The position numbers and the translations under genes were made by a program. DNA of 64,000 nucleotides. Origin: Nevskiaceae bacterium. Its GTDB lineage: Bacteria; Pseudomonadota; Gammaproteobacteria; Steroidobacterales; Steroidobacteraceae. This document shows, one piece after another, positions 2,864 through 61,836 of the stretch (the first letter of the stretch is position 1; every line of letters begins with the position of its first letter). The notes under the pieces were generated by a model, which saw only the letters and a list, made by a program, of their open reading frames with translations, searched no databases and had not been told where the DNA came from. The DNA is taken from contig VEQP01000009.1 in NCBI GenBank assembly GCA_018883185.1, positions 32,329 through 96,328 on the forward strand, in the 5' to 3' direction.

Positions 2864-2871
2864 GCGAGTGG

Positions 2872-4844: not shown

Positions 4845-4965
4845 TCAACAACTGCGGGCCCGGGCGCGACAATCGAATCGGCGTGAGGTGCCATAAGGCA
4901 GGTGCATGGCTGCGGGGCCATAAAGCATTGGCCGGTGCGACGATGGAGTCGCGACAATCGCTCGC

Positions 4966-6317: not shown

Positions 6318-6321
6318 ACGT

Positions 6322-7338: not shown

Positions 7339-7399
7339 ACTCGCCAGTTATCCTGCACTCGCGCGCCTGTGGGCGCTTTCGATATCGAGGAGTTTCGAC

Positions 7400-7681: not shown

Positions 7682-7691
7682 TCGGCGCCAG

Positions 7692-8996: not shown

Positions 8997-8999
8997 CAG

Positions 9000-9884: not shown

Positions 9885-10630
9885 TCACCGCCATCCAGGG
9901 GGATGACGGCACCCGTCAAAAATCCGCAGTTCGGCCCCAGCAACCAAGCGACCGTTTCGGCCACTTCCTGCATGTGTGCAGGCCGCGCCATGGGAATTTC
10001 TTTGATGCGTGACTCTAGCAGCGCACTCTGCTGCGAGCGGATGAGTTCGAAGCGTTCGGTCGCCACGAGCCCGGGGGCGATGACATTGATCCGAATGCCC
10101 TTGTCCGCGACTTCCAGCGCTGCCGCTTTGGTGAGGCCGATGACGCCCCACTTGGCCGCGCAGTAGTCCTGTAGACCCGCAAACCCGCGCGTGCCCCCGA
10201 TGGAACTGTTGTTGACGATGGCGCCGCGGCCGGTCGCGCTCATCAGCCGCAACTCCTGTTGCATGCAGAGGAAGGTGGAGCGCAGGTTGAAGGCGATGGT
10301 TTGCTCAAAACGTTCCAGAGGAGTGTCGATCGTGGGTGAATTCCCGAGCGTACGACCGACGTTATTGAACGCAGCGTCCAGTCGGCCGTGGCGCGACTGC
10401 AACACCTCGAAAAACTGTTCGACGCTGTCGGGCAGTGTCGCATCGAGGCTGATGGCCGACGCCTGTCCCCCCTCACTGCGGATCGTCTCCACAAGTTCTT
10501 CGCAGAGTTCAACCCGACGTGCACCAATAACGACCGTCGCACCCAAGGCGGCGAGATGGCGCGCACTTTGCCGACCCATGCCGCTCGATCCGCCGAGCAC
10601 GGCGACAACCTGTCCCTTCAACGTGTGCAT
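9872..10630 (-). CDS. SDR family oxidoreductase
   Basis: GGSSGMGRQSARHLAALGA; NNVGRT; YCAAKWG; C-terminal GAVIPLDGGE. Confidence 0.9.
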   Translation of the reverse strand: MHTLKGQVVAVLGGSSGMGRQSARHLAALGATVVIGARRVELCEELVETIRSEGGQASAISLDATLPDSVEQFFEVLQSRHGRLDAAFNNVGRTLGNSPTIDTPLERFEQTIAFNLRSTFLCMQQELRLMSATGRGAIVNNSSIGGTRGFAGLQDYCAAKWGVIGLTKAAALEVADKGIRINVIAPGLVATERFELIRSQQSALLESRIKEIPMARPAHMQEVAETVAWLLGPNCGFLTGAVIPLDGGECAA

Positions 10631-10841
10631 CCGAGTTGCCTCCCCCGCGATGTATCGGCGGATTCTAACGCCGCAACATCGAATCGCCTGACAAAGACTG
10701 TTGCGAATATGTCACTATGCGTCGCTTGTATGCCTCGGTGCGTTTAAAGCATGAGTGACCTGTCAATGGTCGCGATAATCGGGGCGAAGTGGGGGACGAG
10801 TTTGTCCCCGAGATCGATAGACGTTCGTTTCATTCGGAGGG

Positions 10842-16394: not shown

Positions 16395-17231
16395 ATGAGC
16401 ACCGAATACACGCCGCCCAAAGTTTGGGTCTGGAATCGCAGCAATGGCGGCAAGTTCGCCAACATCAACCGTCCGACCGCAGGCGCCACCCACGACAAGG
16501 AGCTGCCGCGCGGTCGCCATCCGCTGCAACTGTATTCGCTGGGGACGCCCAACGGAGTCAAAGTTACGGTGATGCTCGAGGAGTTGCTCGCTGCGGGACA
16601 CGCGGGTGCGGAGTACGACGCCTGGCTGATCAATATCGGCGAAGGTGATCAATTCGGCAGCGACTTTGTCGCGATCAATCCCAATTCGAAGATCCCGGCG
16701 CTACTCGATGTCAGCACTTCGCCCACCACGCGCGTGTTCGAGTCCGGTTCGATCCTCGTCTACCTCGCCGACAAATTTGCCGCATTCCTGCCACGCGACG
16801 CTGCTGCACGAGCCGAGTGCCTGTCTTGGCTCTTCTGGCAGATGGGCAGCACACCTTACCTCGGCGGCGGCTTCGGGCATTTCTACGCTTACGCGCCGCA
16901 GAAGTGGGAGTACCCGATTGATCGGTTCGCGCTCGAGGTCAAGCGGCAACTCGATGTGCTCGATCGCAACCTGGCAACACGTCGCTACGTGGCGGGTGAC
17001 GAGTACAGCATCGCCGACATGGCGATTTTCCCGTGGTACGGCGGTCTCGTGCTCAACAACCTGTACAACGCGGCGGAGTTTCTCGAGGTCGTGAGCTATC
17101 GCAACGTACTGCGTTGGGCGAGTGAGATTCGCGAGCGTCCGGCTGTGCAGCGCGGCCAGCGGGTCAATCGGACTTGGGGGCCTGAAGACTTGCAGGTGCG
17201 TGAGCGGCACTCGGCGGCGGATATTCGTTGA
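16395..17231 (+). CDS. yghU: Glutathione S-transferase family protein, YghU-like
   Basis: YTPPKVWVWNRSNGGKFANINRPTAGATHDKELPRGRHPLQLYSLGTPNGVKVTVMLEEL is the characteristic YghU N-terminus. Confidence 0.85.
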   Translation: MSTEYTPPKVWVWNRSNGGKFANINRPTAGATHDKELPRGRHPLQLYSLGTPNGVKVTVMLEELLAAGHAGAEYDAWLINIGEGDQFGSDFVAINPNSKIPALLDVSTSPTTRVFESGSILVYLADKFAAFLPRDAAARAECLSWLFWQMGSTPYLGGGFGHFYAYAPQKWEYPIDRFALEVKRQLDVLDRNLATRRYVAGDEYSIADMAIFPWYGGLVLNNLYNAAEFLEVVSYRNVLRWASEIRERPAVQRGQRVNRTWGPEDLQVRERHSAADIR

Positions 17232-17822: not shown

Positions 17823-18899
17823 ATGACCCGTCGAAACTCAATCATCGCGCTGCTGCTCGCCTTGTGTGCGTTGGCACTGGATGCTGCGCCTGCGCCTCGT
17901 TCGCCAGTGCAGGCCGCCGTCGGTGAGGGTTATGCCGAGGCACTCGATCGAGGTTGGCTTGAGGCCGTCATCACCGTTCGACGTGCTGAACCCGTGTTGC
18001 AATTGGCCGAGCAGGTGGCTGGCTGGCAGATCGTCGCCGTGCCCTCGGCTAACGGCAGTGCAGCGAGCGCCCGCACTGGTTCCGGTGAGCCGCGCGAATG
18101 GCGGGTCGGTGACGCTTCCGGCCAACCGGGAGTGCTGCGGGTGATCGAGGCTCGCCCAGCCAACTCGGGATCGTCGGCGAGGCCCTTACGTGCTTCGGCT
18201 CAACCCTGGGATACAGGCGGGCATTTCAGCGTGATGACGCGATCCAATGACGCCGAGGGACGTTGGCGCGCCGCCGAGGCGCTCGGCTGGGGTGCGTGGA
18301 ATGCGCCGGTCGAGCTCGATTTCGGCGGCGTGCGGCTCGCCAACGTCATCTTGCGCGGTCCTGAGGGCGTCAACCTGTCGATCTACGAACGACGTGAACC
18401 GCGTTTGCCCGATGCACCGGATCTACGTGGCTTGCGTCGTCCGTTCAATGCCATGCAGATCGTGCGCGATCCGCTTGCAGCGCGACGCTTCTATGTGGAC
18501 ATCCTGAAATTCGAAGTGCTCGCCGAGGGGCGGTATCGTGGTGCGCCCGGGGTCGTCAACAATTTCGGCATGCCGGCCAACCTCGCCGGCGATGTGGCGC
18601 TCGATTACATGATCCTCGCGCCGGTCAAGAACGGACCGACGCAAATCGAGGTGGTGCGCTTCAATGGCATCCAAGGTCGTGCCCTGCCAACCGATCCGGC
18701 ACCGACCCTCGGCATCACGGCGTTGCGCTTTCCGGTGAGCCGCCTCGCGCTCATCGAGGAGCGACTGCGCGCGGCTAACTGGCCACTACTGCAGGCGCCG
18801 GCCGAGCGGCAACTGCCGCCGTACGGCCGCGTGCGCTGGCTCGCCGTGAGCTCACCCGAGGGTGCGGTGCTCGAATTTTTCGAACTCAGCGACCCATGA
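17823..18899 (+). CDS. Exported VOC/glyoxalase-like protein
   Basis: Signal peptide MTRRNSIIALLLALCALALDAAPAP; VOC-like segment MQIVRDPLAARRFYVDILKFEVLAEGRY and C-terminal SSPEGAVLEFFEL. Confidence 0.65.
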   Translation: MTRRNSIIALLLALCALALDAAPAPRSPVQAAVGEGYAEALDRGWLEAVITVRRAEPVLQLAEQVAGWQIVAVPSANGSAASARTGSGEPREWRVGDASGQPGVLRVIEARPANSGSSARPLRASAQPWDTGGHFSVMTRSNDAEGRWRAAEALGWGAWNAPVELDFGGVRLANVILRGPEGVNLSIYERREPRLPDAPDLRGLRRPFNAMQIVRDPLAARRFYVDILKFEVLAEGRYRGAPGVVNNFGMPANLAGDVALDYMILAPVKNGPTQIEVVRFNGIQGRALPTDPAPTLGITALRFPVSRLALIEERLRAANWPLLQAPAERQLPPYGRVRWLAVSSPEGAVLEFFELSDP

Positions 18900-19824
18900 T
18901 GGGCTGACCGGGGCCGTACTTGGCCATGTATTCGGCAAAGTCGATGCGCGGCTTGGTCCAGGACTTCAAGTCAAAGATTTCCGGTGTCTTCTTCTCGAGT
19001 GCCAAGCGGGCGCCGCGCGGCAGATCGTCGAGGCTGCGCAGCTTCGTGCCAAGACCCTTGCCCCAGGTACGCCCCGGCGTCTTGCCCATGCCGAGCCAGG
19101 GATGAAAGCTCACGAGGTTCTGGAACTGAACGGTCGAGAGGGCACTGGATTTACCCGGGTCCTGGATGTCGCGTACGTCGGCCGCAAAAAAGTAATGCGA
19201 GTCCCAGTAGAACGTCGGGCCGCCCGCTTCCTTCGGCCATTTGTCTTCCTTGAACGGATTGGGGAATGAGAACGACGACTGGTTGGGCGCGAGCACTTTG
19301 CCGGCGATCACGTCGATGCGCATGTCCTTGGGCTTGAGCGTCGCTTCGGGTCCGGTGACGATACCATCGGGCCCGATTTCCACCGAAAGTGGGCCGCCGG
19401 CGAATTGCCAGATTTCGCGCTTTTCGCCCGTGACCGGATTGACCCAGTGATCGACGAGATCATCGGTGTCGAAGGCCGTGTACGCGCCGACTTCGCGAAC
19501 CATGCACTTGTAGTTGCCGTTGGGCAGCGGGGACCAGGAGCCTGCGGCGAGGTTCTGCATGGTCAGCATGGGCTTCAAATTGCCGTCGTTGAGCCACAGG
19601 TACAGATGCAGCCGGCTGAAGGTGTAGACCGTTTCCTCGGCGATCGACCCCTTGAGCTTGGCGAGCAGGCGCGCGCGCGCCTTGGGATCCTCAAGTTGCA
19701 GTGCAGCGACGCCCCCGGGCGTGGCGGCCACGGCAGGCGAGAGCATCGAGGCGGCCATTGACCCGCCGATGGCCACCGAAGCGCCGAGCATCGAGCGACG
19801 CGAAATACCCATGTCCGACATGTG
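18886..19824 (-). CDS. DUF1838-like protein (paralogue A), twin-arginine-like signal
   Basis: MSDMGISRRSMLGASVAIGGSMAAS leader; body with VDHWVNPVTGEKREIWQF and WYDSHYFFAADVRD-type segments; long N-terminal ORF extension rejected. Confidence 0.65.
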   Translation of the reverse strand, partial: HMSDMGISRRSMLGASVAIGGSMAASMLSPAVAATPGGVAALQLEDPKARARLLAKLKGSIAEETVYTFSRLHLYLWLNDGNLKPMLTMQNLAAGSWSPLPNGNYKCMVREVGAYTAFDTDDLVDHWVNPVTGEKREIWQFAGGPLSVEIGPDGIVTGPEATLKPKDMRIDVIAGKVLAPNQSSFSFPNPFKEDKWPKEAGGPTFYWDSHYFFAADVRDIQDPGKSSALSTVQFQNLVSFHPWLGMGKTPGRTWGKGLGTKLRSLDDLPRGARLALEKKTPEIFDLKSWTKPRIDFAEYMAKYGPGQPIMGR

Positions 19825-19920
19825 AACCCCCTCGAAAAATGAGCTCTGAACATAACGCAAGCCGATGCGTGTTGTGCCTTGCGACGTTACCCTGTCCTCC
19901 TGTTGCTCAAAGGGGGTCAA

Positions 19921-20823
19921 ATGAGCGAAGCCAGTGCATGGTCCAGACGTGAGGCCTTGACGGGCCTCGGGTTGCTCGCGATGGCGGGGGGCAGTCACGC
20001 CGGCGCGACTGGCGCCACCAACGCGGGCCTCGTCAATCCGCCGCGTTCGTCCGCACCAGCGGTACTTTCCGCCGAGGCTTTTGCCGACTTCATGCGATTG
20101 CGGACTGCGCCCGATGGTCGGCCCGTGCTTTGGGTGTATTCCGGCGTGCTGGTCGTGAAGCCCGAGGGCGAGGTGGCCCAGCCGCTCGCACGCATCGAGG
20201 GACTGAGTCGCTCGTTCGCGGTTGCGCAGCCCGATGGTAGTTACCTCTGGACGCTCGATGAGGCCGGTTATTACTGCGATCCGCTGACCGGAGAGGTTGC
20301 CTCGTCGCTGTTCAACCCGTTCATCGGTCAGCACGTGGTGCCGAAGCACTATCGCTCGCCACAGACGCTGCGCTTCAGCCGCAACGGAGTTGCGCCGGTT
20401 CGCGAGCTGCCACCCGGCATCGACTTTCACGGCGAGATTACGCGCCTCGGAGAAGTCGCCGGCACCGCCGCCATGACCGAAGACTTGTATGTGCGGATGG
20501 GCGCCACGGCCGCGACGGCGGATCGCCCGGCCCGTCCGGTACGCTTCGCCAATTCGCTCGCGACCTTCACGACACTGCGACGCAACCTGCAGCGCCCGGC
20601 GAACGAATGGGTCGACTGCCAGTTCAACTACACCACGCTCAATACCTTCGTCGACTGGCTGCAGCTCGGCGGTAGGGCGGGCGTGCAGGACATGCGGATC
20701 GTCGGTATCAAGTGTCGCCTCGAAGACCGCGAGGCCGTACCGAGTGGTTTGCGCGCGCGCATTGAGCGCGAGCATCCGGATTTGCTCAAGGCCGATTTTC
20801 GTACCGGGGGTGCGGGCGCATGA
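19921..20823 (+). CDS. DUF1838-like protein (paralogue B), twin-arginine-like signal
   Basis: WSRREALTGLGLLAM leader; LARIEGLSRSF...YYCDPLTGEVASSLFNPF; preceded by AAAGGGGG. Confidence 0.65.
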   Translation: MSEASAWSRREALTGLGLLAMAGGSHAGATGATNAGLVNPPRSSAPAVLSAEAFADFMRLRTAPDGRPVLWVYSGVLVVKPEGEVAQPLARIEGLSRSFAVAQPDGSYLWTLDEAGYYCDPLTGEVASSLFNPFIGQHVVPKHYRSPQTLRFSRNGVAPVRELPPGIDFHGEITRLGEVAGTAAMTEDLYVRMGATAATADRPARPVRFANSLATFTTLRRNLQRPANEWVDCQFNYTTLNTFVDWLQLGGRAGVQDMRIVGIKCRLEDREAVPSGLRARIEREHPDLLKADFRTGGAGA

Positions 20824-21767
20824 TTGATCGACGAAGTCTCTTGCAGGGTGTGGGCTTCGCGGCGGTGCTGCAAGCCCCGGTGCTGGTTGAAGCTGGCGCT
20901 ACCGTTGCCACCGCTGCTCGGGGCAGCGCCCCGGGTGCGCTCGATCTGCGCACTGCGGAGGGCAATGTGAAGGCGATGGCGAAGATGTCGGCCACGCTCG
21001 CGCCCGATGGCCACAAGCACGGCTGGTACAGCGGCGTGTTGATGGGTGTGGTGCCGGGACAGGCGGTACGCGAACTCGTAGGCATCATCGGTATGAGCAC
21101 GCAGCGGCTGCGCGCTGTGCCGGAGCAGGGTGGCTATCAGTTGTTGCAGAAGGAGTGCGGCTTCTTCACAGATCTTGCGACCGGTGCCGTGCTCGATCGC
21201 TGGCTCAACCCTTACCTCAACGAGTTCGTCGAGCCGTTCCATATTGCGAACCCGGCGGTGAATCGCTGGATCCTGCCGGTGGTGAAGGAAGAGCGATTCT
21301 ATGATCGCGTGCAGAACGACGCGCCGATGGAACGACCGTTCGTGCTGCCTTGGCAGCGTGCCGGCGATCGCGTGATGCTGGAACAGCGCACCCATTTTTG
21401 GGCTAACAATCCGCTCGATCCCGCTATCTGGAAGCGCGAAAGCGGCGGGCCGCGCATCCAGGTCTCCGATTGCATGAGTTACAACGCGCGCTATGAAGAT
21501 CTCGTCGATCCGCGACGCGACAGCGTCGAGTATTCCGGGCATTGGGTGCACGTGCGCCCCTGGCAGCCGTGGATGCTGATGGGAGCGCACCCCGGACATT
21601 GCCTCTACAGCGCGATGACAGGCAGTGCGCTGCGTGCCGAGAACGTGCCGGCACACATTCTCGGCATCGTGCGCGAGCGTCTGCCAGAGTTTTTGCAGCC
21701 GCCCACCGAAGTGCGCAAGAGCGAACCCAGCATGATTCGCTTCATGCGTGAGCGCAAACCGTCGTGA
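20820..21767 (+). CDS. DUF1838-like protein (paralogue C), twin-arginine-like signal
   Basis: MIDRRSLLQGVGFAAVL leader; CGFFTDLATGAVLDRWLNPYLNEFVEP; ATGA overlap with upstream gene. Confidence 0.65.
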   Translation: MIDRRSLLQGVGFAAVLQAPVLVEAGATVATAARGSAPGALDLRTAEGNVKAMAKMSATLAPDGHKHGWYSGVLMGVVPGQAVRELVGIIGMSTQRLRAVPEQGGYQLLQKECGFFTDLATGAVLDRWLNPYLNEFVEPFHIANPAVNRWILPVVKEERFYDRVQNDAPMERPFVLPWQRAGDRVMLEQRTHFWANNPLDPAIWKRESGGPRIQVSDCMSYNARYEDLVDPRRDSVEYSGHWVHVRPWQPWMLMGAHPGHCLYSAMTGSALRAENVPAHILGIVRERLPEFLQPPTEVRKSEPSMIRFMRERKPS

Positions 21768-22465
21768 CGGGTCCGTTGCACCGGCATTACCGCGGCAAGA
21801 TGCTATATCTCACCGATGGCATCGGTGAGATGGGCCGCGAGTTCTTCAGCGTTACCGTACAGCCTAACGGCGAGCGCACGCTGCGCGCGCAGTGCGAGAT
21901 GGACGACGATCGACTACTGCGCGACGTGGTGCTCACCGTCGATGCCGAGTGGCGACCGAAGGACGCCTTCATGCGCTTGACGGTTGATGGCCAGTTGCTC
22001 GGGACCTCGTGGTTCAACTTCACTACGCGTACCGCGCACTGCGAGGGGCTCACCTCGCGCGAGGGGCGGGTTTCGCAGCGCTTCGAACTCGATGAGGATA
22101 TCGAGTCGTTCGGTACCCACGCTCTGCATGGCGATGCTTGGGTGGTGGCCCGGTTGCGTCGACATGCCGGACCGATGGAGCGCTTTGCGCTCGCGACCTT
22201 CACCAATTCGACGCAGGCTAACGGCGCCTCGGGGCCGACGCTGATTCGTCTCGGCGAGGGTTATTCGCGGATCCACGACCTTGGCGAAAAGACGCTCTCG
22301 GTGCCGGCCGGGCAGTTCGCCACCCGACACATCCGCATCGATGTGCCCGGCGTAGATGATTTCGAGGTCTGGGCCGGCGGCGAGGATTGCTTGCCCGTCC
22401 AGCTACGGTCAAAGAATTTACGTCAGACCTATGTGCTGGTGGATGTGCAGGGGGAGTGGCGATGA
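21764..22465 (+). CDS. Hypothetical protein, operon-embedded
   Basis: GTGA overlap upstream and ATGA overlap downstream; no family recognised. Confidence 0.7.
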   Translation: MTGPLHRHYRGKMLYLTDGIGEMGREFFSVTVQPNGERTLRAQCEMDDDRLLRDVVLTVDAEWRPKDAFMRLTVDGQLLGTSWFNFTTRTAHCEGLTSREGRVSQRFELDEDIESFGTHALHGDAWVVARLRRHAGPMERFALATFTNSTQANGASGPTLIRLGEGYSRIHDLGEKTLSVPAGQFATRHIRIDVPGVDDFEVWAGGEDCLPVQLRSKNLRQTYVLVDVQGEWR

Positions 22466-23352
22466 CGATGCGTATCAATCGACGCGAGGTGGTGGGCGGT
22501 GCAATCGGTGCGGTGGCCACTAGCGCCGTGGCCTCAGCGACTGCAGCGCCGTCGACCAAGGCCGCCACCGCGGCGCGCGCGGCGGCACCGTCGCCAGCAC
22601 CGCCCGATGCGCTCACGCTCTATCGGAAAATGCATCTTCGAACTGACGATGGCTTGCTGTTCTGGTGGCTGCAGGGGCCGAAAATCGGCCAGGTGGGCAC
22701 CACGTTGACACCGCTCTACACGAGTAGCATCGGTACGTTGCAACGCGTGCGGCACCGCGAGGATGGCGGGTTCGACGTCACGCAGCTCGAGCTCATCATC
22801 CTCTGCGACTTGAGCAGCGGGGAGCCGCTGAGTCAGTGGCAAAACCCCTATACGAACGAGATGATCCCTATCCGATTTTCACCCGTCGGGCCGACGGTGG
22901 TGCGCTATCGAGCCGACAACTCACGCGTGCTGCCGACCGAGATCGGAGGAACGCCGCTGCAGGCCACCGCCACCATGCATGCCCCGGTGATCGTCGGTGA
23001 CGATGTGTTCCAGCGCGACGAGTCCGTGGCCCGGGTGTTTACCCCCGGTCGTACGACGCCCTTCGAGGTCAACGACATCGCGGTCTATCACGGCAGTCTC
23101 GCCAATCTCGCCGATCCCGCGGTGACCGTGGGCGAGGCGACGGTATTCTTTGCCGAGGTCACGGGCTGGCAACGGTGGATGAACATGGGCGAGCGCCCTG
23201 GCAATCTGACCTCTCGTCTGACGGGTCGTAAGGTGAGGCGCTACGAGGACTTGCCGCAGAGGTGGCGCGATCAACTAACGGTTGTGGCGCCGAAGATTGC
23301 TGCCGACCCCATTGCAGCCCTTGATGGTGCCGCCGCGCGTTTCGATCGATGA
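22462..23352 (+). CDS. DUF1838-like protein (paralogue E), twin-arginine-like signal
   Basis: MRINRREVVGGAIGAVATSAVASA leader; CDLSSGEPLSQWQNPYTNEMIPI; ATGA overlap. Confidence 0.65.
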   Translation: MTMRINRREVVGGAIGAVATSAVASATAAPSTKAATAARAAAPSPAPPDALTLYRKMHLRTDDGLLFWWLQGPKIGQVGTTLTPLYTSSIGTLQRVRHREDGGFDVTQLELIILCDLSSGEPLSQWQNPYTNEMIPIRFSPVGPTVVRYRADNSRVLPTEIGGTPLQATATMHAPVIVGDDVFQRDESVARVFTPGRTTPFEVNDIAVYHGSLANLADPAVTVGEATVFFAEVTGWQRWMNMGERPGNLTSRLTGRKVRRYEDLPQRWRDQLTVVAPKIAADPIAALDGAAARFDR

Positions 23353-23359
23353 GGTGACC

Positions 23360-24277
23360 ATGTTGCGTAAACGATTATTTTCTTTGTTGCTCCTCGGACT
23401 GAGCCCGTTTGCCTCGTTGGCGGCGGAACCCGAGGCTCCGGGCACGCCCGCAGGGTTCACCTTCCGCTACCTGACGGCGACCGATGGCGTGCCGCTCAAC
23501 GTGGTCGAGACGGGCAACCCGCAAGGGCCGGCCATCATTTTTTTACATGGGTATACGCAAAGCTATCTCAGCTGGCACCCGCAGCTAGACGATGCGGTGC
23601 TGCGCGCCAAGTACCGGTTGATCGCCGTCGATCTGCGCGGACACGGCGCTTCGGGCAAGCCCTGGGACAAGGCGGCCTACGCGGGTCATCTACCCTGGGC
23701 GCGCGACGTACGCAGTGTCGTCGAGCAACTCGGCGTGAGCCGTCCGTGGCTCGTCGGTTGGTCGTTCGGCGGTTTCGTTGCCATGGATTACGTGCGCGAG
23801 TACGGCGAGGCCGCGGTTGCCGGCGTGATGATGACCGGCAGCCATGGCGGACTGTTGTCGCGTCCCATGGGGCCACCGCCGGCATTCACCGGTGATCTGG
23901 ACCTCGCCATCGAGGGCGCGCGGACATTTATGAAAATGATGTCGGTGCAGCCGCCCGCCGCCGCTACGATTGATCGTGGTACCTATGCCAATGTCATGAT
24001 GCCGCCGTACGTGCGTAATGCCATGTGGGGTAAGCGACTCGACAACACCGATCTCACGCCGCGCTTAAAGTTGCCGGTACTTATGATCCTAGGTCGGCAG
24101 GATCTGAGCCTGCCCGCCGATACGATAGCGACGGCGCTGGCATCACGATCCAACATCACGGTGCGGATATTCGAGCAGACGGGGCACTCGGCGTTCATCG
24201 AGCACCCCGCGCAATTCAATCAGGAACTCGCGGCTTTCGTGGCCAAGGCCGGCGTGGCCAAAGGGAGTGCGCAATGA
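23360..24277 (+). CDS. Exported alpha/beta hydrolase (classical triad)
   Basis: Signal peptide; IIFLHGYTQSYLSW; GWSFGG elbow; GRQDLSLP; TGHSAFIEHP. Confidence 0.85.
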   Translation: MLRKRLFSLLLLGLSPFASLAAEPEAPGTPAGFTFRYLTATDGVPLNVVETGNPQGPAIIFLHGYTQSYLSWHPQLDDAVLRAKYRLIAVDLRGHGASGKPWDKAAYAGHLPWARDVRSVVEQLGVSRPWLVGWSFGGFVAMDYVREYGEAAVAGVMMTGSHGGLLSRPMGPPPAFTGDLDLAIEGARTFMKMMSVQPPAAATIDRGTYANVMMPPYVRNAMWGKRLDNTDLTPRLKLPVLMILGRQDLSLPADTIATALASRSNITVRIFEQTGHSAFIEHPAQFNQELAAFVAKAGVAKGSAQ

Positions 24278-25305
24278 TCGCGTTTCGATTGGGGATGTTG
24301 TTTCGCTCGGCAGTGCCGGTGCGTTGGGGCCGGTTCGTGGGGATGGCGGCGTGGGCGTTGCTGCTCGGCACCCCAGCCGGCACCACGTGGGCGCTCGGGA
24401 CACCGTCGGTGCCGCTCGCCACGCTTGAATCCCGATACGTGACACCCACCTCGCGGTTCGTCGATATCGACGGCGTGCGTATGCACTACAAGGACGAGGG
24501 TGCGGGGCCTGCGGTGGTGATGCTGCATGCTTCCTTCATGAGCCTGCACAGTTGGGATGGTCTCGCCGCGGATCTGGCTCGGGATCACCGCGTGATCCGT
24601 TTCGATTTTCCGCTCGCCGGGCTGACTGGCCCGGATCCGCAGGGCCGCTACTCGATGGAGCGCAGCACCGAGCTCATGAATGGGCTGCTTGCCAAACTCG
24701 GCGTGAGCACCTATTCGATCATCGCGACCTCCTCGGGCGCCATCGTCGGCTTTCGTCAGGCGGCAGCCAAGCCTGAGGCGGTGACGCGGCTCATCCTCAT
24801 CAATGCGGCGGGCATGCCGCGCACTGCAGTGACCGACCCGAACCGGGAGCGGGGTTCGGCGTTCAGTCGCTGGCTGCAAGGCAAGTACAAGTCGCGTGGC
24901 TACTGGGAACAGTCGCTGACCGCGCAGTTCACCGGCGGCCAGCCGCCGCCCGCCGACATCGTCGAGCGTGTGTTCGATCTCAATCGACGCTCCGGGCTTG
25001 TCGAGGAGTCGGCGATCTACATGCGCAATTTCCGCACGGGTGATCCGGAGACCGTGCTCGGGCAGATTCGAGCGCCCACGCTGGTTCTTTGGGGTATGGG
25101 CAACATCACCGTCGCGCATCTCGAGGCCGATGTGTTCCAGCTTTGGTTGACACAGGCACCCTCGATCAAGAAAAAATATCCTCGCTATGGCCACTACGTC
25201 TACATGGAGAACCCCGGCATCGTGATTCCCGACGTCCGGAACTTTCTCGAAGGTCGGATGGATGCCGAGTTGCGCGTGACGCGGCGGATGCCGCCTGCTC
25301 CATGA
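24274..25305 (+). CDS. Alpha/beta hydrolase with A-T-S-S-G elbow
   Basis: VVMLHASFMSLHSW; SIIATSSGAIVGF; YGHYVYMENP; ATGA overlap with upstream gene. Confidence 0.78.
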   Translation: MIAFRLGMLFRSAVPVRWGRFVGMAAWALLLGTPAGTTWALGTPSVPLATLESRYVTPTSRFVDIDGVRMHYKDEGAGPAVVMLHASFMSLHSWDGLAADLARDHRVIRFDFPLAGLTGPDPQGRYSMERSTELMNGLLAKLGVSTYSIIATSSGAIVGFRQAAAKPEAVTRLILINAAGMPRTAVTDPNRERGSAFSRWLQGKYKSRGYWEQSLTAQFTGGQPPPADIVERVFDLNRRSGLVEESAIYMRNFRTGDPETVLGQIRAPTLVLWGMGNITVAHLEADVFQLWLTQAPSIKKKYPRYGHYVYMENPGIVIPDVRNFLEGRMDAELRVTRRMPPAP

Positions 25306-25306
25306 C

Positions 25307-26158
25307 ATGACGCCGCTACAGTTCCAAAGCCTGGTGGTCGTCGGCATCCTGCTGTTCTACGCGCTGCTGGAGCTCGTACGCGGACGGTTCTTCACCGCGG
25401 CGGCCGACCGTGAAGACAATCGGCTCGATGTGGCGGTGATGGTCATGTTCCCGCTGGTATCGGGCGGCGTGTCGATCGTTGCAGTGGCGCTGTGCCAGGC
25501 CTTCATGCCGGCGCAGGCCGGCGCGCTCGCACACTGGCCATGGTGGGCCATGGTGCTGACCTTGCTCCTCGTCGACGATCTGACGCAGTACTTCTGGCAT
25601 CGACTGTCGCATACGAGCGTGCTCTGGCCGTTGCATCGGGCGCATCACAGCGCCTCGTACATGAGCGTGCGTGTGGTTTACCGCAACAACGCCTTGTACT
25701 ACGCGATGATGCCTGGACTATGGCTGAGCGCGATGTTCAGCTTCTTGGGTTTCAGTTGGGTGTATGTCGGCTACATCATGGTGAAGCTGGCCGTCATCGC
25801 CGGCGCGCACTGCAGCCTGCCCTGGGATGCGCCGCTTTATCGCATCGCGGCACTTCGACCGGTGATGTGGGTGCTCGAGCGCACCATTTCTACGCCCGCC
25901 ACGCACTGGGCGCATCACGCCTTGTCACAGGATGACGGCGTCGGTCACTACTCGGGCAATTTCGGCAATCTGCTCTTTCTGTGGGACGTGCTTTTCGGCA
26001 CGGCGCGCATCACTCGGCGCTATCCGCCGGCTTTTGGGCTGGCCGATGATCGCGCGCATGGTCACGAGAAGTGGTACACGCAAATGTTGTTCCCGTTCCT
26101 GCGTTCGCGCCGTGCCGAGTCGACCTTGGTCTGGCCGCCCGGGCGACCGCCGGCGTGA
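25307..26158 (+). CDS. Sterol desaturase/fatty acid hydroxylase family protein
   Basis: Histidine boxes HRLSH, HRAHH, HWAHH with multiple TM segments. Confidence 0.85.
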   Translation: MTPLQFQSLVVVGILLFYALLELVRGRFFTAAADREDNRLDVAVMVMFPLVSGGVSIVAVALCQAFMPAQAGALAHWPWWAMVLTLLLVDDLTQYFWHRLSHTSVLWPLHRAHHSASYMSVRVVYRNNALYYAMMPGLWLSAMFSFLGFSWVYVGYIMVKLAVIAGAHCSLPWDAPLYRIAALRPVMWVLERTISTPATHWAHHALSQDDGVGHYSGNFGNLLFLWDVLFGTARITRRYPPAFGLADDRAHGHEKWYTQMLFPFLRSRRAESTLVWPPGRPPA

Positions 26159-27663
26159 GTCGGCCGCCGGCGACGGATCGACGAGGCCTGTTGCAGGGCC
26201 TGCTCGCCGGTTCGTTGTTGGGCGCTTCCGCGCCGACGCGCAGCGAACCACAGGCTACCCCGCCTGCTGCAGTGCCGGATCGGCGCTGCATCATCGATGC
26301 CGGCTGGGCGCTGCTGCATGACGGGCAGGGCTTTGCGCTGCAGCGTGACGTGTCGATCGTGGTCGACGGCGATCGCATTGCGGCCGTGCATGCCGGCGCG
26401 CTGCGCTCGATGTTGCCGCGGGTGGATGCACGCAATCATCTGGTTCTTCCGGGGTTCATCTCAGGGCACACCCACGTCGCAGGCGGCACGGTCACGCGCG
26501 GCATTTTCGAAGGTCGTCGCTCCTATGCGCGGGCGTTGGAACTCGCCGAGCAGCTGGATGATGAAGCCCTCGATGCCTTGACGGCACTGAATTTGGCGGA
26601 GTTGCTACGCTCTGGTTGCACCACGCAACTCGACATGGCGCTCTCTTTGCGACAGATGCAAAGTTACGTGCGCGTGGCGCGGCGCTGGGGGGTACGTGCT
26701 TATCCCTCTGCCATGGTGCCGGGTGTCGGACGACTCTTTCCGATCTGGCAACGCGACAACGATGCGGTGTTACGCGAGTCGGTGCCGGGCACTTTGGCAG
26801 AGATCGAAGCCGCCATCACTTACGCACGACAAATAAACGGCGCTGATGAGGGTTTGATCCGGCCGCAAATGGCGATGCATGCGAGCGACACGCACACGCC
26901 CGAGACGATCGCGGCCACGCTCGCTGCAGCCACTGAACTCGGTAACGGCTTGCACCTGCACCTTTGTCAGGGCGCTCGCGAGGTGGAGGCCGTGCAGCGC
27001 CTGTGGCAACAGCGACCGGTGCAATGGTTGGAGTCCCTCGGGGTTTTCGGGCAGCGCGTGTTCGCAGCGCACATGTCGAGTGCCGATCCCGCCGTGGATG
27101 CACCGCTGCTGCGGCGCAGCACGTTTACCTATTGCACCTGCCCCTCCGCCGGTGGTGCCAGCGGGTTCACCCAGCCGTGGCCGGAAATGCTGGCGGCGGG
27201 CGTGAACACGAATATCGGTATCGATACGCACTCCAACGACTATGTCGAGAATCTCAAACTCGCGGTGCTCAAGGGCGAGGCGCGCTGGTCGTTGTTGCGT
27301 CGCAACTCGCCGGTACCGATGCAACGGCCGAGCATCCAGCGTGCTGTCGAAGCGGCGACGGTCGATGCGGCGCGTGGCCTCGGCCGCGAGGACATCGGAC
27401 GCATTGCGGTTGGTGCGAAAGCGGATCTGGTCTCGATCGATGTGTCGGGGCTACTGGCGGGTACGGGCGCGTTGCCGCCGGAGCCGCTCTATCATCTGCT
27501 TTATGCCAACGGGCTTATGGTTCGGCACGTGTTGATCGGCGGCGCTTTCAAAGTGTTCGACGGCGTGTTACGGGTCGATGACGAGACCGCATTGCTAGCG
27601 CGCGGCGGCGCAGTGGTACGGAAAATTTGGGCGCAACTCGAAGATGAGGGTTTCTTCAAATGA
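26155..27663 (+). CDS. Amidohydrolase family protein with twin-arginine-like leader
   Basis: HLVLPGFISGHTHVAGG (HxH), MHASDTHTPE, GIDTHSNDYVENLK metal-ligand motifs; GTG start overlapping upstream TGA (GTGA). Confidence 0.82.
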   Translation: MSRPPATDRRGLLQGLLAGSLLGASAPTRSEPQATPPAAVPDRRCIIDAGWALLHDGQGFALQRDVSIVVDGDRIAAVHAGALRSMLPRVDARNHLVLPGFISGHTHVAGGTVTRGIFEGRRSYARALELAEQLDDEALDALTALNLAELLRSGCTTQLDMALSLRQMQSYVRVARRWGVRAYPSAMVPGVGRLFPIWQRDNDAVLRESVPGTLAEIEAAITYARQINGADEGLIRPQMAMHASDTHTPETIAATLAAATELGNGLHLHLCQGAREVEAVQRLWQQRPVQWLESLGVFGQRVFAAHMSSADPAVDAPLLRRSTFTYCTCPSAGGASGFTQPWPEMLAAGVNTNIGIDTHSNDYVENLKLAVLKGEARWSLLRRNSPVPMQRPSIQRAVEAATVDAARGLGREDIGRIAVGAKADLVSIDVSGLLAGTGALPPEPLYHLLYANGLMVRHVLIGGAFKVFDGVLRVDDETALLARGGAVVRKIWAQLEDEGFFK

Positions 27664-28307
27664 CTTTGTTCAAATTGAGTGTGGTGGCCATGATGGGTGT
27701 GCTGCTCGGCACGTTGTCGCCTGGCGCGCAGGCAATCGAGTGGCAGACCTTCGACCCATCACCCTATTCGCAAAGTGTGACCGACTGCGATCGCGAGGCG
27801 GCACACCCCGACGATCCGAACAAGGTGGTGCCGGGTCGCACCTCACGCGAGATGAATCTCGACACCGCCATCGGGGTTTGCCGGGCTGATCTGGCCAAAG
27901 ACCCGAAAAATCCGCGCATCAGTTATCAGCTCGCGCGCTCGCTGACCTACGCGGGCAAGGTGACCGAGGCGCTGCCCTTCATTGAGAAGGCCGCGGCACA
28001 GAAGTATCCGCAGGCCATGTTTGTCGTCGGGTACCTCTATCTCGAAGGCTCTTATGCCTCCCCAAAGAATCCCTGCCGCGCCGCGCAACTCATCCGCGAA
28101 TCGGCAATCTACGGGCGACTGGCTGGGCTACTCGGTTACCCCTCGTACGTGTTGAACGGACGTTTCGCCGGATGCGGGTTGCAGATCGACGCGAAGGAGC
28201 TGCGCGAATTTCTCAGCAAAGCTAAAAAGTCGAAGCTCGAGTACTACCCCTCTGTGCTGGCTGAGTCGCTGGACGTGCGGTTACTTCAGTTGGAGCAGCA
28301 GAAATGA
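27660..28307 (+). CDS. Exported Sel1/TPR-like repeat protein
   Basis: Signal peptide; AAAQKYPQAMFVVGYLYLEGSYASPKNPCRAAQLIRESA Sel1-like; ATGA overlap. Confidence 0.55.
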   Translation: MTLFKLSVVAMMGVLLGTLSPGAQAIEWQTFDPSPYSQSVTDCDREAAHPDDPNKVVPGRTSREMNLDTAIGVCRADLAKDPKNPRISYQLARSLTYAGKVTEALPFIEKAAAQKYPQAMFVVGYLYLEGSYASPKNPCRAAQLIRESAIYGRLAGLLGYPSYVLNGRFAGCGLQIDAKELREFLSKAKKSKLEYYPSVLAESLDVRLLQLEQQK

Positions 28308-29209
28308 ACGACAAGCCTGTATCACGGCGTGAGGTGCTGCAGACGGCGGCCATTGCGGGGCTTGCGCCGCTGATCGCAGCGGCTCCCGTCGAGGCCAATC
28401 AACCGCGTCCCAGTGGCGAGCGCGGGTACGCCCGCGGTCCGCATGGCCAAGTGCACTACCACGACAACCAGGGCGCGAGTGCGGTGCCGTTGCTGTTACT
28501 GCATCAGGCGCCGATGTCACATCGGCAATTCGATGCGGTGTACGGTCCTTTGAAACAGCGTGGGGTTCGCGCCATCGGCATCGACATGCCGGGCTTTGGC
28601 ATGTCGGATCCGACCCCATTCGTGCCCACGGTGGCTGACTGGGCGAGTTCCGTTGCCGCGGTGCTCGATCATCTGCGCATCCGTCAAGCTGATGTGCTCG
28701 GTCATCACACCGGTGCGTTGCTCGCCACCGAGGTTGCGCTGCAGTATCCCAAGCGTGTGCGACGGGTGATTTTGAACGGGCCTTTCCCGATCAACGAATC
28801 CGAGCGGGCGATGTTTCTCGCCGACTTGCAGAAGACGGAAATCGACTTTGAATATCGCGCCGATGGCACTCACCTGTCGGAGAGTTTCGTCAAGCGCTCG
28901 AAGTTCTATGGGCCAGACGCCGACCCGCGACACATCACGCGCATCCAGGTGGAAAAGTTCATGGGTTACGGACCGTTTTGGTACGGCCACAATGCCGCCT
29001 ATCGCTACGATCACGCCAGCACGCTGCCCTTGCTGAAGCACCCGACGCTGATACTCACCAACACCGGCGACATGGCGTACCCGATGGCGCAGCGCGCGCG
29101 GCAGATGCGCCCGGACATGGCCTATGTGGAGCTGCAGGGCGGCAACGTCGACATCGTCGATCAGGCGACCGAGGCCTGGAGCGACGCTGTGAAGGCTTTC
29201 GTAGCGTAA
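28304..29209 (+). CDS. Alpha/beta-hydrolase-fold protein with G-H-H-T-G elbow and twin-arginine-like signal
   Basis: VSRREVLQTAAIAGLAPLIAAA leader; LLLLHQAPMSHRQF; ADVLGHHTGALLATEVAL; NTGDMAYP; ATGA overlap. Confidence 0.8.
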   Translation: MNDKPVSRREVLQTAAIAGLAPLIAAAPVEANQPRPSGERGYARGPHGQVHYHDNQGASAVPLLLLHQAPMSHRQFDAVYGPLKQRGVRAIGIDMPGFGMSDPTPFVPTVADWASSVAAVLDHLRIRQADVLGHHTGALLATEVALQYPKRVRRVILNGPFPINESERAMFLADLQKTEIDFEYRADGTHLSESFVKRSKFYGPDADPRHITRIQVEKFMGYGPFWYGHNAAYRYDHASTLPLLKHPTLILTNTGDMAYPMAQRARQMRPDMAYVELQGGNVDIVDQATEAWSDAVKAFVA

Positions 29210-29212
29210 CGC

Positions 29213-29938
29213 TTAGGAGGCGAGCGCCACCGTCACCTTGTTGTCGGCACCGATATCCGACACGCTGATGGGCACCCCCATGGCAGCGGCGTAACCCAGC
29301 AGTCGTGGCTTCAGCCAGCTCTCGTGCATCTCGGCATCGCTGAGGTCGAACTGGCCCGAGCGCCGCGCTTCGGCGAGCACATAAGAATAGGGGAAGGTGA
29401 AGGTCCGCTTGCCGGGCTCCACCTTGAGATCGAGACAGAGCTGGTAGAGGCACGCGGTGCGATCGAAAATGCCGGCCAGCGCGATTTCTTTCTCGCCGGT
29501 TTTTTCGATCATGCCTTTGAGGCGCTCGAGCATCGGCTGCATGGTGCGGATGTCGTGCTCGACGTAATCCTCGAGCACGCCGTTGTTCTTGGCGAACTGC
29601 ACCGAGGTCAGGTGCATGTTGACCAGTGCGTCGTTCATTTCGTGTGGATAGGCCGCGGTGTCTTTGAGGGTGCGAATGGCCATGGCCACCGCTTCGCCGA
29701 GCACCTTTTCGCGCCCTTCGAAGCCGCTCGAGGTGGCGAGCATCGCGGCCATGCTCTGCGGAGCGCCGCCGCCTGCCATCATGGCCTTGACCCAGGGCGG
29801 CGGACCGCCGCCTGAGCCGGGTGCGCCGCCGCCGGCGCTCGCCATCATTTTTTTCATGGCCCAGGAAATGAGCTTTGCCTTGAGGCCCTTCTTGGTCGGG
29901 GCAGGCGGTGTGGCCGCGCGTTCTGCAGTGACAGACAT
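29213..29938 (-). CDS. Hypothetical protein with Gly/Pro/Met-rich N-terminal segment
   Basis: Codon-consistent ORF; MMASAGGGAPGSGGGPPPWVKAMMAGGGAP low-complexity N-terminus. Confidence 0.55.
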   Translation of the reverse strand: MSVTAERAATPPAPTKKGLKAKLISWAMKKMMASAGGGAPGSGGGPPPWVKAMMAGGGAPQSMAAMLATSSGFEGREKVLGEAVAMAIRTLKDTAAYPHEMNDALVNMHLTSVQFAKNNGVLEDYVEHDIRTMQPMLERLKGMIEKTGEKEIALAGIFDRTACLYQLCLDLKVEPGKRTFTFPYSYVLAEARRSGQFDLSDAEMHESWLKPRLLGYAAAMGVPISVSDIGADNKVTVALAS

Positions 29939-32595: not shown

Positions 32596-33423
32596 TCAGG
32601 GGCCGCTGGGTTGCTGAAGAGCGCGAATTTCGGCCATGTCACGCGGCGGCTCGCGCCACAGCGCCGCCTCGCTTTGCACGTATTCGCGGATGCTTTGCGG
32701 CAAGTCCTCGAAGCGATCGACCCGCCACGACACCATGTGCATCACGCCCTTGCCTAGGCCGGCGGGCAAATCGCCGAAGCGCAACCAGCTGATCTGATAC
32801 GGATGCTTGAGTCCCTTCGCGGCTGACTGATCGAAGAAATCGTAATGCTCGAACGACTGACTGCGGGTTCCATCACGCAGTGGAAAGTCGAGAAACAGTG
32901 GTGCCGAAAAGGCGAGTGTTCCGCCGAGACGGCGCGCCATGATGTCCGTGCCGGGGCCGATGCGTTGTATCCGCGCGCCTGCGCCTTGCTCGACCCAGCT
33001 CTCGACGCCGCTGCCGCGCAACTCGTAGGTGATGTACTGGTAGGGGTAGCTGATCGGCGGGAGCGGTTTGCCCTGCCACTCGCGCAGGATCGCGTTGCTC
33101 TGCAAGTCCCGGTACACGAAAGTCTTGCGCGACAGCTGATGCGCCTTGCTCTTCGTGGACTGGGTGGTATCGAGCCGGGCTGCGTCGATGCCTTCCATGC
33201 GCATCAGCGGTTGGCCGCTCGGCGAGCTGTAGACCGTGCCGACGGCATACCAGTACACCGGCTTGCCGGAGCCAACGCGCATCTGCACCCACTGGCGAAA
33301 CACCTCGGGGTCGAAGCCGCGATCGGGACTGGCTGGCTGCGCGGCACCTACGCCGCTGAAGCTCAGGCCGAGACAGAGAACAACGACACCAAAAATGGCT
33401 GCGGGCAGGGGGGATCGGGACAT
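32596..33423 (-). CDS. DUF1838-like protein (paralogue F), exported
   Basis: Signal peptide MSRSPLPAAIFGVVVLCLGLSFSG; FVYRDLQSNAILREWQGKPLPPISYPYQYITYELRG; start set at MSRSPLP; upstream ORF extension not used. Confidence 0.6.
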   Translation of the reverse strand: MSRSPLPAAIFGVVVLCLGLSFSGVGAAQPASPDRGFDPEVFRQWVQMRVGSGKPVYWYAVGTVYSSPSGQPLMRMEGIDAARLDTTQSTKSKAHQLSRKTFVYRDLQSNAILREWQGKPLPPISYPYQYITYELRGSGVESWVEQGAGARIQRIGPGTDIMARRLGGTLAFSAPLFLDFPLRDGTRSQSFEHYDFFDQSAAKGLKHPYQISWLRFGDLPAGLGKGVMHMVSWRVDRFEDLPQSIREYVQSEAALWREPPRDMAEIRALQQPSGP

Positions 33424-33504
33424 GCGAATCTCCTCTTCTGGGAGGGTGTACGAACCGGTGGGGGCGAGGCTACACTGCGCGCCCGAGAACATTGCCGAGT
33501 GTAG

Positions 33505-34083
33505 TTGACCCGAATCATGCGACCCGTATTCCTGCAACGCCCTGCCCGAGCCTTGGTGGTCGGTCTCATTGCCCTCATGGGGCTGGGGACCGCTCGACCC
33601 GTGGTGGCCGATACGCCGGAAGAGCAGGGCGTGGTGCAGGGGCTGCAGCTGGCCCTGTCGGCGCAGGCGGTCGTCATGCAGGGCGTCGTCGATCGTGCTC
33701 TCGGCTACATTGGCATCCCGTACCGCTTCGGGGGCAGCCACCCCGACAAGGGCTTCGATTGCAGCGGGCTCGTCAATCACGTGTTTCGGGAGACGCTAGG
33801 GGTCAGTTTGCCGCGCACATCGCGGCAGTTGGCGACGGTGGGCATTGAAGTGGCGCGCGAGGATCTTCGCGCCGGTGATCTCGTGTTCTTCAATACGCGT
33901 GGTTCGCCAAACTCGCACGTCGGCATCTACCTCGGTGACGGGCGTTTCGTACACGCTCCCCGAGCCCGTACCTTGGTACGGATCGACCAACTCGACGACG
34001 TCGGCTACCGCGGCCGCTTCAATGGGGCTCGGCGGATTGACCCGCTGACCTTCGTCGTCGCAACCGTCGACCCGGCGAGCTGA
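33505..34083 (+). CDS. C40 family (NlpC/P60) peptidase
   Basis: GGSHPDKGFDCSGLVNHVF (catalytic Cys), NSHVGIYLGDGRFVHAP (His). Confidence 0.9.
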   Translation: MTRIMRPVFLQRPARALVVGLIALMGLGTARPVVADTPEEQGVVQGLQLALSAQAVVMQGVVDRALGYIGIPYRFGGSHPDKGFDCSGLVNHVFRETLGVSLPRTSRQLATVGIEVAREDLRAGDLVFFNTRGSPNSHVGIYLGDGRFVHAPRARTLVRIDQLDDVGYRGRFNGARRIDPLTFVVATVDPAS

Positions 34084-34106: not shown

Positions 34107-35681
34107 CTAGCCCGACAGCGACAAGTACCGCGATGGATGAGCGTGGCCCGGGTGGTCCATCCAGCCCCGCACGCGTCGTGAGATCAGCCGATGCGAGTTG
34201 CCCGCCCACAGCGGAATCAGCGGCACATCGCGCAACAACAAGTTCTCCGCTTCTCCATATCCGGCGTAACGGGCGGCCAAGGTCAGCTGACGCTCTGCAG
34301 CCGTGACCACCCGGTCGAAGGCCGCATTGCGATAGCGGGTCACGTTCTCGGCCGAGTCGGAGACGAAGCGCAGCAGGAAGTTGGATGCCGAGGGCACGAC
34401 GGCGAAGGCGGCATAGCTGAAAAGATCGTAGTCGCCGCGCTGCAGGGCTGCGCTGTAAGCGCGGCCATCGAGGGGCAGCAGCTCCAGATCCACGCCGATG
34501 GGCTTCCACATCGCAGCCACTGCCAGATACATCTTGCGGCCCGTCGGGCTCGTTGGAAAACCGATGCCTAGACGCAGCCGTCCGGCGCCGACGCTTTGGC
34601 GTACCAAGGCGCGCGCCGTGTCGAGTCGCTGCGCCATGGCGGCGGCGCTGTCGGCGGGTTTACGCAAGGCCGGATAGCCCGGGATCCCGGGCGGCAGCAC
34701 GCTGTTCCACGGCTGCTCGCCGAGGCCACGCACCTTGCCAACGAGCACATTGCGGTCGACCGCGAGCGAGAGCGCGCGGCGCAGTTCCGGCTTGTCTAGC
34801 GGCGCGCGGGCGATGTTGATGCCGATGGCGCCGAGCGCGCATTCCGGTGAACTGCGCAGGGCGTTGCCGAGTTCGCGGCGCGCTGCCGCGTAGTTGCCCA
34901 TGTCCTCGATCGAGGCAATGTCCGCCTGTCCAAGTCTGAACAGCCGCAGCCGCGTGCTGTCGTCGTAGCCGGTGAGCCATTCGATGTTCTCGATGGCGAC
35001 TTCGGCTGCCGCATAGAACCGCGGATTGCGCCGCAGCTTCAAATCTTTGGCGCCCGCCGCCCACGACTCGAGCCGATAAGGCCCATTGCTGACGATCAGC
35101 GTAGGCTTTGCCCATTCGCGCCCGTGAACTGCGATCACGTGTTCGGGCACGCAGTAGGCCGTGACGAGATTGACAGGCAATTCCACGTCGGGGTGCTGCA
35201 GGCGGATGACGAGGGTCAACGCATCGGGCGCGCTGACGCCGAGGGTCGAGGGTGGTTTACGGCCGAAGCGCACATCCACCGCGCCCACGATCGAGTCGAG
35301 GCGCGCGGCTTGCGCGGCGCCCGTCTCCGGTTGCAGGTAGCGCCGCAACGTGTAAACGAAATCGCGGGCGGCGAGCGGCTTGCCATCGGACCAACTGAGA
35401 TTGCGTCGCAGGCGGAAGGTCCAGGTGAGTCCATCGGCGCTCGTCGACCACGACTCGGCACACCCTGGCACCACTCGACCTGCGGCATCGGTGACGGCAA
35501 GTCCTGCGAAAAGCTCGGCGGCCATCTCTGCAGTGACCTGACCGGTCGGGCGCTGCGGGTCGAGCGAGGTCAACTCGCTCGAGACCACCCGGCGCAGCAC
35601 GGTGGGAGCCTGCGCGTGAAGCGAAGTGGCCGCACACAGCGAAGCCGCCGAGCCGGCGATGAGAAAGTCCCTGCGTTGCAT
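34107..35681 (-). CDS. ABC-type peptide/solute-binding protein (SBP_bac_5), twin-arginine-like leader
   Basis: MQRRDFLIAGSAASLCAATSLHA leader; ELTSLDPQRPTGQVTAEMAAELFAGL; WTFRLRRNLSWSDGKPLAARDFVYTLRR. Confidence 0.85.
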   Translation of the reverse strand: MQRRDFLIAGSAASLCAATSLHAQAPTVLRRVVSSELTSLDPQRPTGQVTAEMAAELFAGLAVTDAAGRVVPGCAESWSTSADGLTWTFRLRRNLSWSDGKPLAARDFVYTLRRYLQPETGAAQAARLDSIVGAVDVRFGRKPPSTLGVSAPDALTLVIRLQHPDVELPVNLVTAYCVPEHVIAVHGREWAKPTLIVSNGPYRLESWAAGAKDLKLRRNPRFYAAAEVAIENIEWLTGYDDSTRLRLFRLGQADIASIEDMGNYAAARRELGNALRSSPECALGAIGINIARAPLDKPELRRALSLAVDRNVLVGKVRGLGEQPWNSVLPPGIPGYPALRKPADSAAAMAQRLDTARALVRQSVGAGRLRLGIGFPTSPTGRKMYLAVAAMWKPIGVDLELLPLDGRAYSAALQRGDYDLFSYAAFAVVPSASNFLLRFVSDSAENVTRYRNAAFDRVVTAAERQLTLAARYAGYGEAENLLLRDVPLIPLWAGNSHRLISRRVRGWMDHPGHAHPSRYLSLSG

Positions 35682-35686
35682 GGTCC

Positions 35687-36631
35687 TCAGTGCTCGATGA
35701 GCCAGTGGAAAACACCGTGTGGTGCACGGATGATCGCCGTGCGACACACGCTATCACCGATGGACAGTGATTGCGGTGTACTCGCGATCTCGATGCCGGC
35801 GCTGCGGCAGCGCGTCACGAGTGATTCGAGTCCGCTCACCCGCAGGCGCACGCCGATGATACCCCGATTGGGCGCTCGAGCGCGTTCGCGCAAATCGGCG
35901 TAGCTGCCTTCGGGCAGCCCGTAATGAATGATGCCGAGCATCACATCCTCGACCACGCGCCCGTAGTTATTGGCGCGGATATGCAGTGTCTGACTGACGC
36001 CGACCATGCGCGAGAACGATTCGCTCGCGAACTCATAGCGGAAGCCGAGCGGCACGCCGAGCACCTCTTCGTAGAAATGGCGCACCGGCTCGAAATCGCT
36101 CACGGGGCCCGAGCTGCTCTGTACTTCACTGAAGACTCGATCGGTCAGGGTGACGAACTGGGCGGCATCGAGGTTCTGCGGTTCGATGGCCGCGATCATC
36201 ACGCCATCCGGGCCCTTGGCATGGGCTTCGAGAAAGCGCGAACCATCCGGCAGATCGACATGGGCGCCTTCGGAGACCAATTCGAATCCATGGGCTCGCA
36301 GCCGCGCCACGGCGGCGGGGCGGTCCGCAGTGAAGAAGTCGATCATCTTCAACGCATTGCAGGCAACGCCCACGCCGCCCTCGCGGATGATCACGGGCGA
36401 TCCCGGCGAGAACTGCACGAGCCATACGCCGAGTTCCGAGCCCGGCGTGACGAGCCGCATCAGACGTGCGGTCTGACCTGAAACGCCAAACAGCGCGTGA
36501 GTGGCGCCGGCATCGAGTGCAGCGTCACCCACGACCTGCATGCCAATGACATCGACGAACAGTTCCCGTTGGCGGTGCAAGTCCGCCGTGCTGATGATGG
36601 GCCCGTCGATGGATTCGACGCGCCCGCTCAA
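35687..36631 (-). CDS. VOC family protein
   Basis: Two VOC-like modules (STADLHRQRELFVDVIGMQVVGD; VRHFYEEVLGVPLGFRYEF). Confidence 0.75.
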   Translation of the reverse strand: MSGRVESIDGPIISTADLHRQRELFVDVIGMQVVGDAALDAGATHALFGVSGQTARLMRLVTPGSELGVWLVQFSPGSPVIIREGGVGVACNALKMIDFFTADRPAAVARLRAHGFELVSEGAHVDLPDGSRFLEAHAKGPDGVMIAAIEPQNLDAAQFVTLTDRVFSEVQSSSGPVSDFEPVRHFYEEVLGVPLGFRYEFASESFSRMVGVSQTLHIRANNYGRVVEDVMLGIIHYGLPEGSYADLRERARAPNRGIIGVRLRVSGLESLVTRCRSAGIEIASTPQSLSIGDSVCRTAIIRAPHGVFHWLIEH

Positions 36632-61832: not shown

Positions 61833-61836
61833 TCGT

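Follow-up and report, generated by a model that had tools for sequence, protein, structure and literature searches.

The locus raises the question of what could unite, in a single row of genes, three copies of the DUF1838 family, a protein without family, three proteins of the alpha/beta-hydrolase fold, a membrane hydroxylase and an amidohydrolase. The ten genes concerned (g1 to g10) are tightly packed on the plus strand at 19921-29209 of the window, by which we mean the whole stretch of 64,000 nucleotides that was analysed, from a freshwater gammaproteobacterium. The whole set is present, in the same gene order as in the window, at the locus L044 of the MAG Gammaproteobacteria bacterium WB9_1A_092, which serves as reference below. 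The features are as follows (Pfam cut-offs: 25 bits for DUF1838, 31 bits for FA_hydroxylase).

16395-17231, plus strand: u3, glutathione S-transferase flanking the syntenic site (family and synteny)
18886-19821, minus strand: m0, DUF1838 protein with Tat-like signal, divergent from g1, start at 19821 (Pfam 59 bits)
19822-19920, no strand: m0-g1 divergent intergenic region of 99 bp, presumed promoter region, near-identical in L044; consensus promoter not found
19921-20823, plus strand: g1, DUF1838, Tat-like signal (Pfam 44 bits)
20820-21767, plus strand: g2, DUF1838, Tat-like signal (Pfam 117 bits; model with pLDDT 87)
21764-22465, plus strand: g3, DUF3108-like all-beta barrel, no export signal (no Pfam match; model)
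22462-23352, plus strand: g4, DUF1838, Tat-like signal (Pfam 63 bits)
23354-24277, plus strand: g5, alpha/beta hydrolase, nucleophile motif GWSFGG, Sec-like signal (Pfam Abhydrolase)
24274-25305, plus strand: g6, alpha/beta-hydrolase fold, motif ATSSGA, Sec-like signal (Pfam Abhydrolase)
25307-26158, plus strand: g7, membrane FA_hydroxylase/sterol-desaturase family, boxes HRLSH, HRAHH, THWAHH (Pfam 71 bits)
26155-27663, plus strand: g8, metal-dependent amidohydrolase, Tat-like signal (Pfam Amidohydro_1 104 bits)
27660-28307, plus strand: g9, weak TPR/Sel1-type protein, Sec-like signal (sub-cut-off Pfam)
28304-29209, plus strand: g10, alpha/beta-hydrolase fold, GHHTG, His at nucleophile position, Tat-like signal (Pfam Abhydrolase)
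29213-29938, minus strand: d1, flanking protein without named family, convergent, marking the site across the genus (synteny)

Read again from the sequence, the same-strand layout and all the junctions are as first described. Seven of the nine junctions are 4-bp stop/start overlaps (ATGA at 20820, GTGA at 21764, ATGA at 22462, ATGA at 24274, GTGA at 26155, ATGA at 27660 and ATGA at 28304); a 1-bp gap (25305/25307) separates g6 from g7, and the gap between g4 and g5 is 1 bp if g5 starts at the GTG at 23354, a start kept in L044 too, or 7 bp if it starts at the ATG at 23360. Among adjacent co-directional genes from other parts of this genome, 4-bp overlaps join 70 of 207 pairs, and 70 of 148 close pairs (gene ends taken from a simple script), so that 7/9 is mildly unusual (Fisher p = 0.011 and p = 0.09, respectively). 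Since such overlaps are common in the genome, they mark an operon, yet they are not special: of the "translationally coupled operon" of the preliminary description the layout stands, while coupling is putative. A consensus scan for promoter- and terminator-like sites gave none above shuffles. We infer that g1-g10 are co-transcribed as one transcription unit. That they are real genes is indicated by purifying selection on all ten, with dN/dS of 0.03-0.12 versus the L044 orthologs (g3, g4 and g9 aligned in part only). In L044 itself g3 (5777-6341) is short by about 42 residues with a frame change, and g9 (11506-12090) runs into the g10 frame; both may be assembly errors.

Pfam agrees with the preliminary description on the three DUF1838 proteins, the three alpha/beta hydrolases, the hydroxylase, the amidohydrolase and the absence of a family for g3. 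The label "Sel1-like" for g9 could not be kept, as its matches are all below cut-off (TPR_19, 20.1 against 25 bits; Sel1, PF08238, 16.4 against 30.7 bits). Two things had been missed: the fourth, divergent DUF1838 gene m0, and export signals on nearly all the products. Twin-arginine (Tat-like) signals were recognized by inspection and a simple filter in g1, g2, g4, g8, g10 and m0, and Sec-like signals in g5, g6 and g9; g7 is a membrane protein, and g3 alone has no signal and looks cytoplasmic. With a crude filter, 5 of 10 operon genes are Tat-like, compared with 14 of 111 control genes (p = 0.009). The signal of g2 passed the first filter and failed a stricter one, which is itself crude, since 14/111 genes elsewhere are marked; it was passed by 41 of 63 DUF1838 proteins, and those inspected among the failures carry mostly Sec-like or missed Tat signals. 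Judging from signals read by eye and with these filters, nearly all operon products appear to be exported to the cell envelope.

All four DUF1838 proteins (g1, g2, g4, m0) pass the curated cut-off of PF08894; m0 has a 97% identical ortholog in L044, and g2 has 73% orthologs in the genomes G089 and G064. The family is abundant here: 24 match rows, corresponding to about twenty genes, in a small genome, 27 in G089, 21 in G064 and 2-7 in five other congeners of the family sample, while 76 of the 100 genomes of that sample have none. A further weak match (27.5 bits against 25) lies in the window at 32596-33780 on the minus strand, next to an SBP_bac_5 gene (34107-35747) whose product has a Tat-like signal, and in a relative from another genus five DUF1838 genes share a 7-kb contig (L051, G064:C162). 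In the sources searched no function is assigned to DUF1838, and the literature searched names the family just once, in a single paper; by tying three of its genes to named enzyme classes, the operon offers a first handle on what the family does.

The AlphaFold2 model of g2 (pLDDT 87) is beta-rich, and its best fold matches are LmcA, MTP and lipovitellin, with E = 1.4e-5 and a weak superposition (TM 0.29-0.33) on the LmcA-like lipid-binding fold. Neither DUF1838 nor g7 matched any solved structure in sequence searches. Conservation in DUF1838 falls mostly on W, G, P and N and seldom on acidic residues, which would suit binding better than catalysis. In the genome of the window, TonB receptors account for 5/96 neighbours of DUF1838 genes versus 2/96 in the control, which is not significant, and TonB adjacency was dropped as a rule for the family. 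Alpha/beta hydrolases make up 6/96 of these neighbours, a suggestive figure only, as the 25 listed families of the control tally omit them. At some loci of sister species g2 or g10 comes after a TonB receptor.

The g3 protein does not match the DUF3108 profile (PF11306), which 12 of 32 g3 relatives match weakly (best 1.6e-6). Its AlphaFold2 model (pLDDT 92) is all-beta; the fold search gave the DUF1849 barrel 6ntr as the best match (TM up to 0.57), followed by RseB, LolA and VioE. The 25-phosphosteroid lyase 9g4c was rejected as a relative (TM 0.20, rmsd 16-18 A). The g3 family is found in 89 of 296 genomes of the order, and in several clusters its members adjoin genes for GST, SDR, GxHTG proteins, and SBP_bac_5 accompanied by Opp-type ABC genes. 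The GST, SDR, SBP_bac_5 and GxHTG families flank the present operon too.

Among the enzymes, g5 has a normal nucleophile motif, and g7 both scores above the cut-off of the FA_hydroxylase profile (PF04116) and has the three histidine boxes. Alignment to amidohydrolases shows that g8 keeps the metal ligands HxH, H, H and D, and that it reads HLCQG rather than HLAEN, with Gln where the deaminase Glu stands; NCBIfam gives it no named activity (best 170 bits against a cut-off of 416). In the GxHTG clade to which g10 belongs the nucleophile position is His in 42/42 aligned relatives, the acid position carries D or E wherever it aligns, and the place of the catalytic His near the C-terminus is taken by N in g10 and mostly by T, G or S in relatives, depending on the alignment. 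Of the features of serine alpha/beta hydrolases, g10 thus has neither a Ser/Cys/Asp nucleophile at the elbow nor the catalytic His, and a hydrolase role is unsupported; with dN/dS = 0.033 it is not decaying. The GxHTG family is found in 56/196 genomes of the order, and a second member (GFHTG) lies outside the operon at 9003-9884 on the minus strand of the window. This clade, which is common in the order, represents a testable departure from serine-hydrolase chemistry.

In line with the preliminary description, no described pathway of this composition could be found in the sources searched, and none of the ten genes reaches any NCBIfam cut-off. The explanation that we prefer, with a probability of roughly 0.4, is that g1-g10 encode a catabolic route of the periplasm and inner membrane for a hydrophobic substrate bearing ester or amide bonds. 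It starts from the gene content and close packing, the purifying selection, the synteny across three species, and the families and motifs; the order of its steps, the TonB step, the class of substrate and the part given to DUF1838 and g3 in binding are putative, as are export and co-transcription. The compound would enter the periplasm, probably via a TonB receptor, and exported DUF1838 beta-barrels (g1, g2, g4 and the divergent m0) would bind and present it. The di-iron hydroxylase g7 would oxidise it in the membrane, and the exported hydrolases g5 and g6, together with the amidohydrolase g8, would cleave it. The g10 protein, whose nucleophile is replaced by His, might carry out a non-serine step or bind an intermediate, and the cytoplasmic barrel g3 might handle the product inside, with GST/SDR-type enzymes.

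This catabolic route is favoured because all ten genes are under selection, syntenic and nearly all endowed with export signals or placed in the membrane, because the metal ligands of g8 are kept and the models of g2 and g3 weakly recall lipid-binding folds, and because relatives of g1, g2, g4 and g5 share genomes, g3-neighbour families flank the operon and there is some TonB adjacency. It is weakened by the low TM of DUF1838 (0.33 at most), the TonB enrichment that is not significant, the separation of the genes in relatives and the missing triad of g10. Upstream, the window contains at 84-13244 a cluster of FAD monooxygenase, FAD oxidase, methyltransferase, PhyH, alpha/beta hydrolases, OCD, beta-lactamase family, SDR and TonB receptor genes; these genes possibly belong to the same catabolic island. 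The SDR, GST and hydroxylase neighbours could bring to mind a steroid or lignin route; no diagnostic gene was seen, and we do not claim one. Elsewhere the window encodes a protein combining RCC1 repeats with immunoglobulin-like domains (41606-43585, plus strand) and a NamZ-type exo-beta-N-acetylmuramidase (61810-63045, plus strand). That the locus represents an undescribed, largely Tat-exported oxidative-hydrolytic pathway, with DUF1838 barrels as dedicated carriers and GxHTG as a new His-elbow catalytic class, seems to us improbable. Nothing on exported catabolic routes or on His-elbow hydrolases was found in the literature searched.

The same folds could also be read in terms of envelope biosynthesis or remodelling, with g7 hydroxylating a membrane lipid or pigment, DUF1838 carrying it across the periplasm much as LolA or LmcA would, and the hydrolases trimming it. 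Such a role would agree with the weak likeness of the g2 fold to lipid carriers and of the g3 fold to LolA/RseB, and with g7, which belongs to a lipid-type hydroxylase family, is the most conserved member of the operon (dN/dS = 0.029 versus L044) and has orthologs in most congeners without the rest of the set. Three hydrolases and an amidohydrolase, however, better suit breakdown; g8 is patchy, unlike a core lipid gene (5/296 genomes of the order, with a 65% relative in G343, and in no other genome among the 100 of the family sample); and the upstream genes belong to TonB, SDR, PhyH and FAD-monooxygenase families. On balance we find remodelling somewhat unlikely.

The distribution of the genes bears on a different explanation, namely that functionally separate genes have piled up under a shared promoter at a variable chromosomal site. 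The preliminary description had named a neighbourhood search among the tests that could refute its own reading. In that search the full set was found in three species only (that of the window, G337 and G344, the last with the set split over two or three contigs), all sister species of one genus, and parts of it are dispersed in other congeners. Here L044 and G337:C224 (both 32149 bp, with near-identical matches) were counted once, as were L045 and G344:C33 (4897 bp). In other genomes the chromosomal site can be recognised by d1-ASCH and, on contigs that extend far enough, by molybdopterin oxidoreductase and GST. In four of them (G012, G078, G342, G345) it holds g10 but no other member of the set, and in six (G065, G306, G338, G340, G309, G334) only g7; as several of these contigs end just past the gene, the absence is firm only for G012, G078, G342 and G065. 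A second g9-g10 piece, 92% identical, lies on a 1593-bp contig of G345 (contamination 6%). Relatives of g1, g2, g4, g5 and others occur at scattered loci in G317, G336 and G089, G338 retains g1-g2, and the relatives in G343 are more distant.

These variants of the site and such scatter speak for a pile-up, as does the commonness of 4-bp overlaps in the genome. Against it, relatives of g1, g2, g4 and g5 are concentrated in six of the 24 congeners, the same ones for all four genes, the groupings m0-g1 (L261, L262) and g1-g4-g2 (L052) recur at other loci of G317, G336 and G089, 54 of the 56 GxHTG genomes are also in the g3 list (phylogeny not corrected for), and the operon products are biased towards export; we hold a pile-up to be unlikely. 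Homologs of the upstream window genes beside dispersed orthologs exceed the control weakly. One operon in three species, with its parts standing apart in relatives, makes it possible to study how an operon comes together or falls apart. Detoxification, in which periplasmic hydrolases, amidohydrolase and hydroxylase would inactivate an incoming natural product or antibiotic sequestered by DUF1838 barrels, fits the exported hydrolytic enzymes, the nearby beta-lactamase-family and GST genes and the patchy distribution, but is very doubtful given that no NCBIfam resistance model reaches its cut-off for the ten genes and that ten genes with three paralogs are a large set for this task.

The catabolic route that we prefer can be compared with known systems part by part. 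The metal ligands of g8 align with those of ATZ/TRZ-type amidohydrolases (8-oxoguanine deaminase 7ww2, atrazine chlorohydrolase), from which it departs by its Tat-like signal, its HLCQG motif and scores far below all NCBIfam cut-offs. With serine alpha/beta and epoxide hydrolases g5 and g6 align over the domain and g10 over the core, whereas in g10 and 41 relatives His occupies the nucleophile position, and most of these proteins have lost the catalytic His. Lipid-binding barrels of the LmcA/LolA/RseB type resemble DUF1838 in being all-beta and exported (both as predicted for DUF1838), and the best fold-search matches are of this kind; on the other side, DUF1838 superposes with TM of at most 0.33 and g3 with 0.57 at best, and there is no sequence relation to solved chains. 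As a whole, the locus is closest to the TonB-linked catabolic gene clusters of Proteobacteria, a general known kind. It differs from these in that most of its enzymes seem to be exported, in its three to four DUF1838 copies and in having no gene diagnostic of a known pathway, and it resembles them in that hydrolases, an oxygenase, a TonB receptor and SDR genes lie close together on one replicon.
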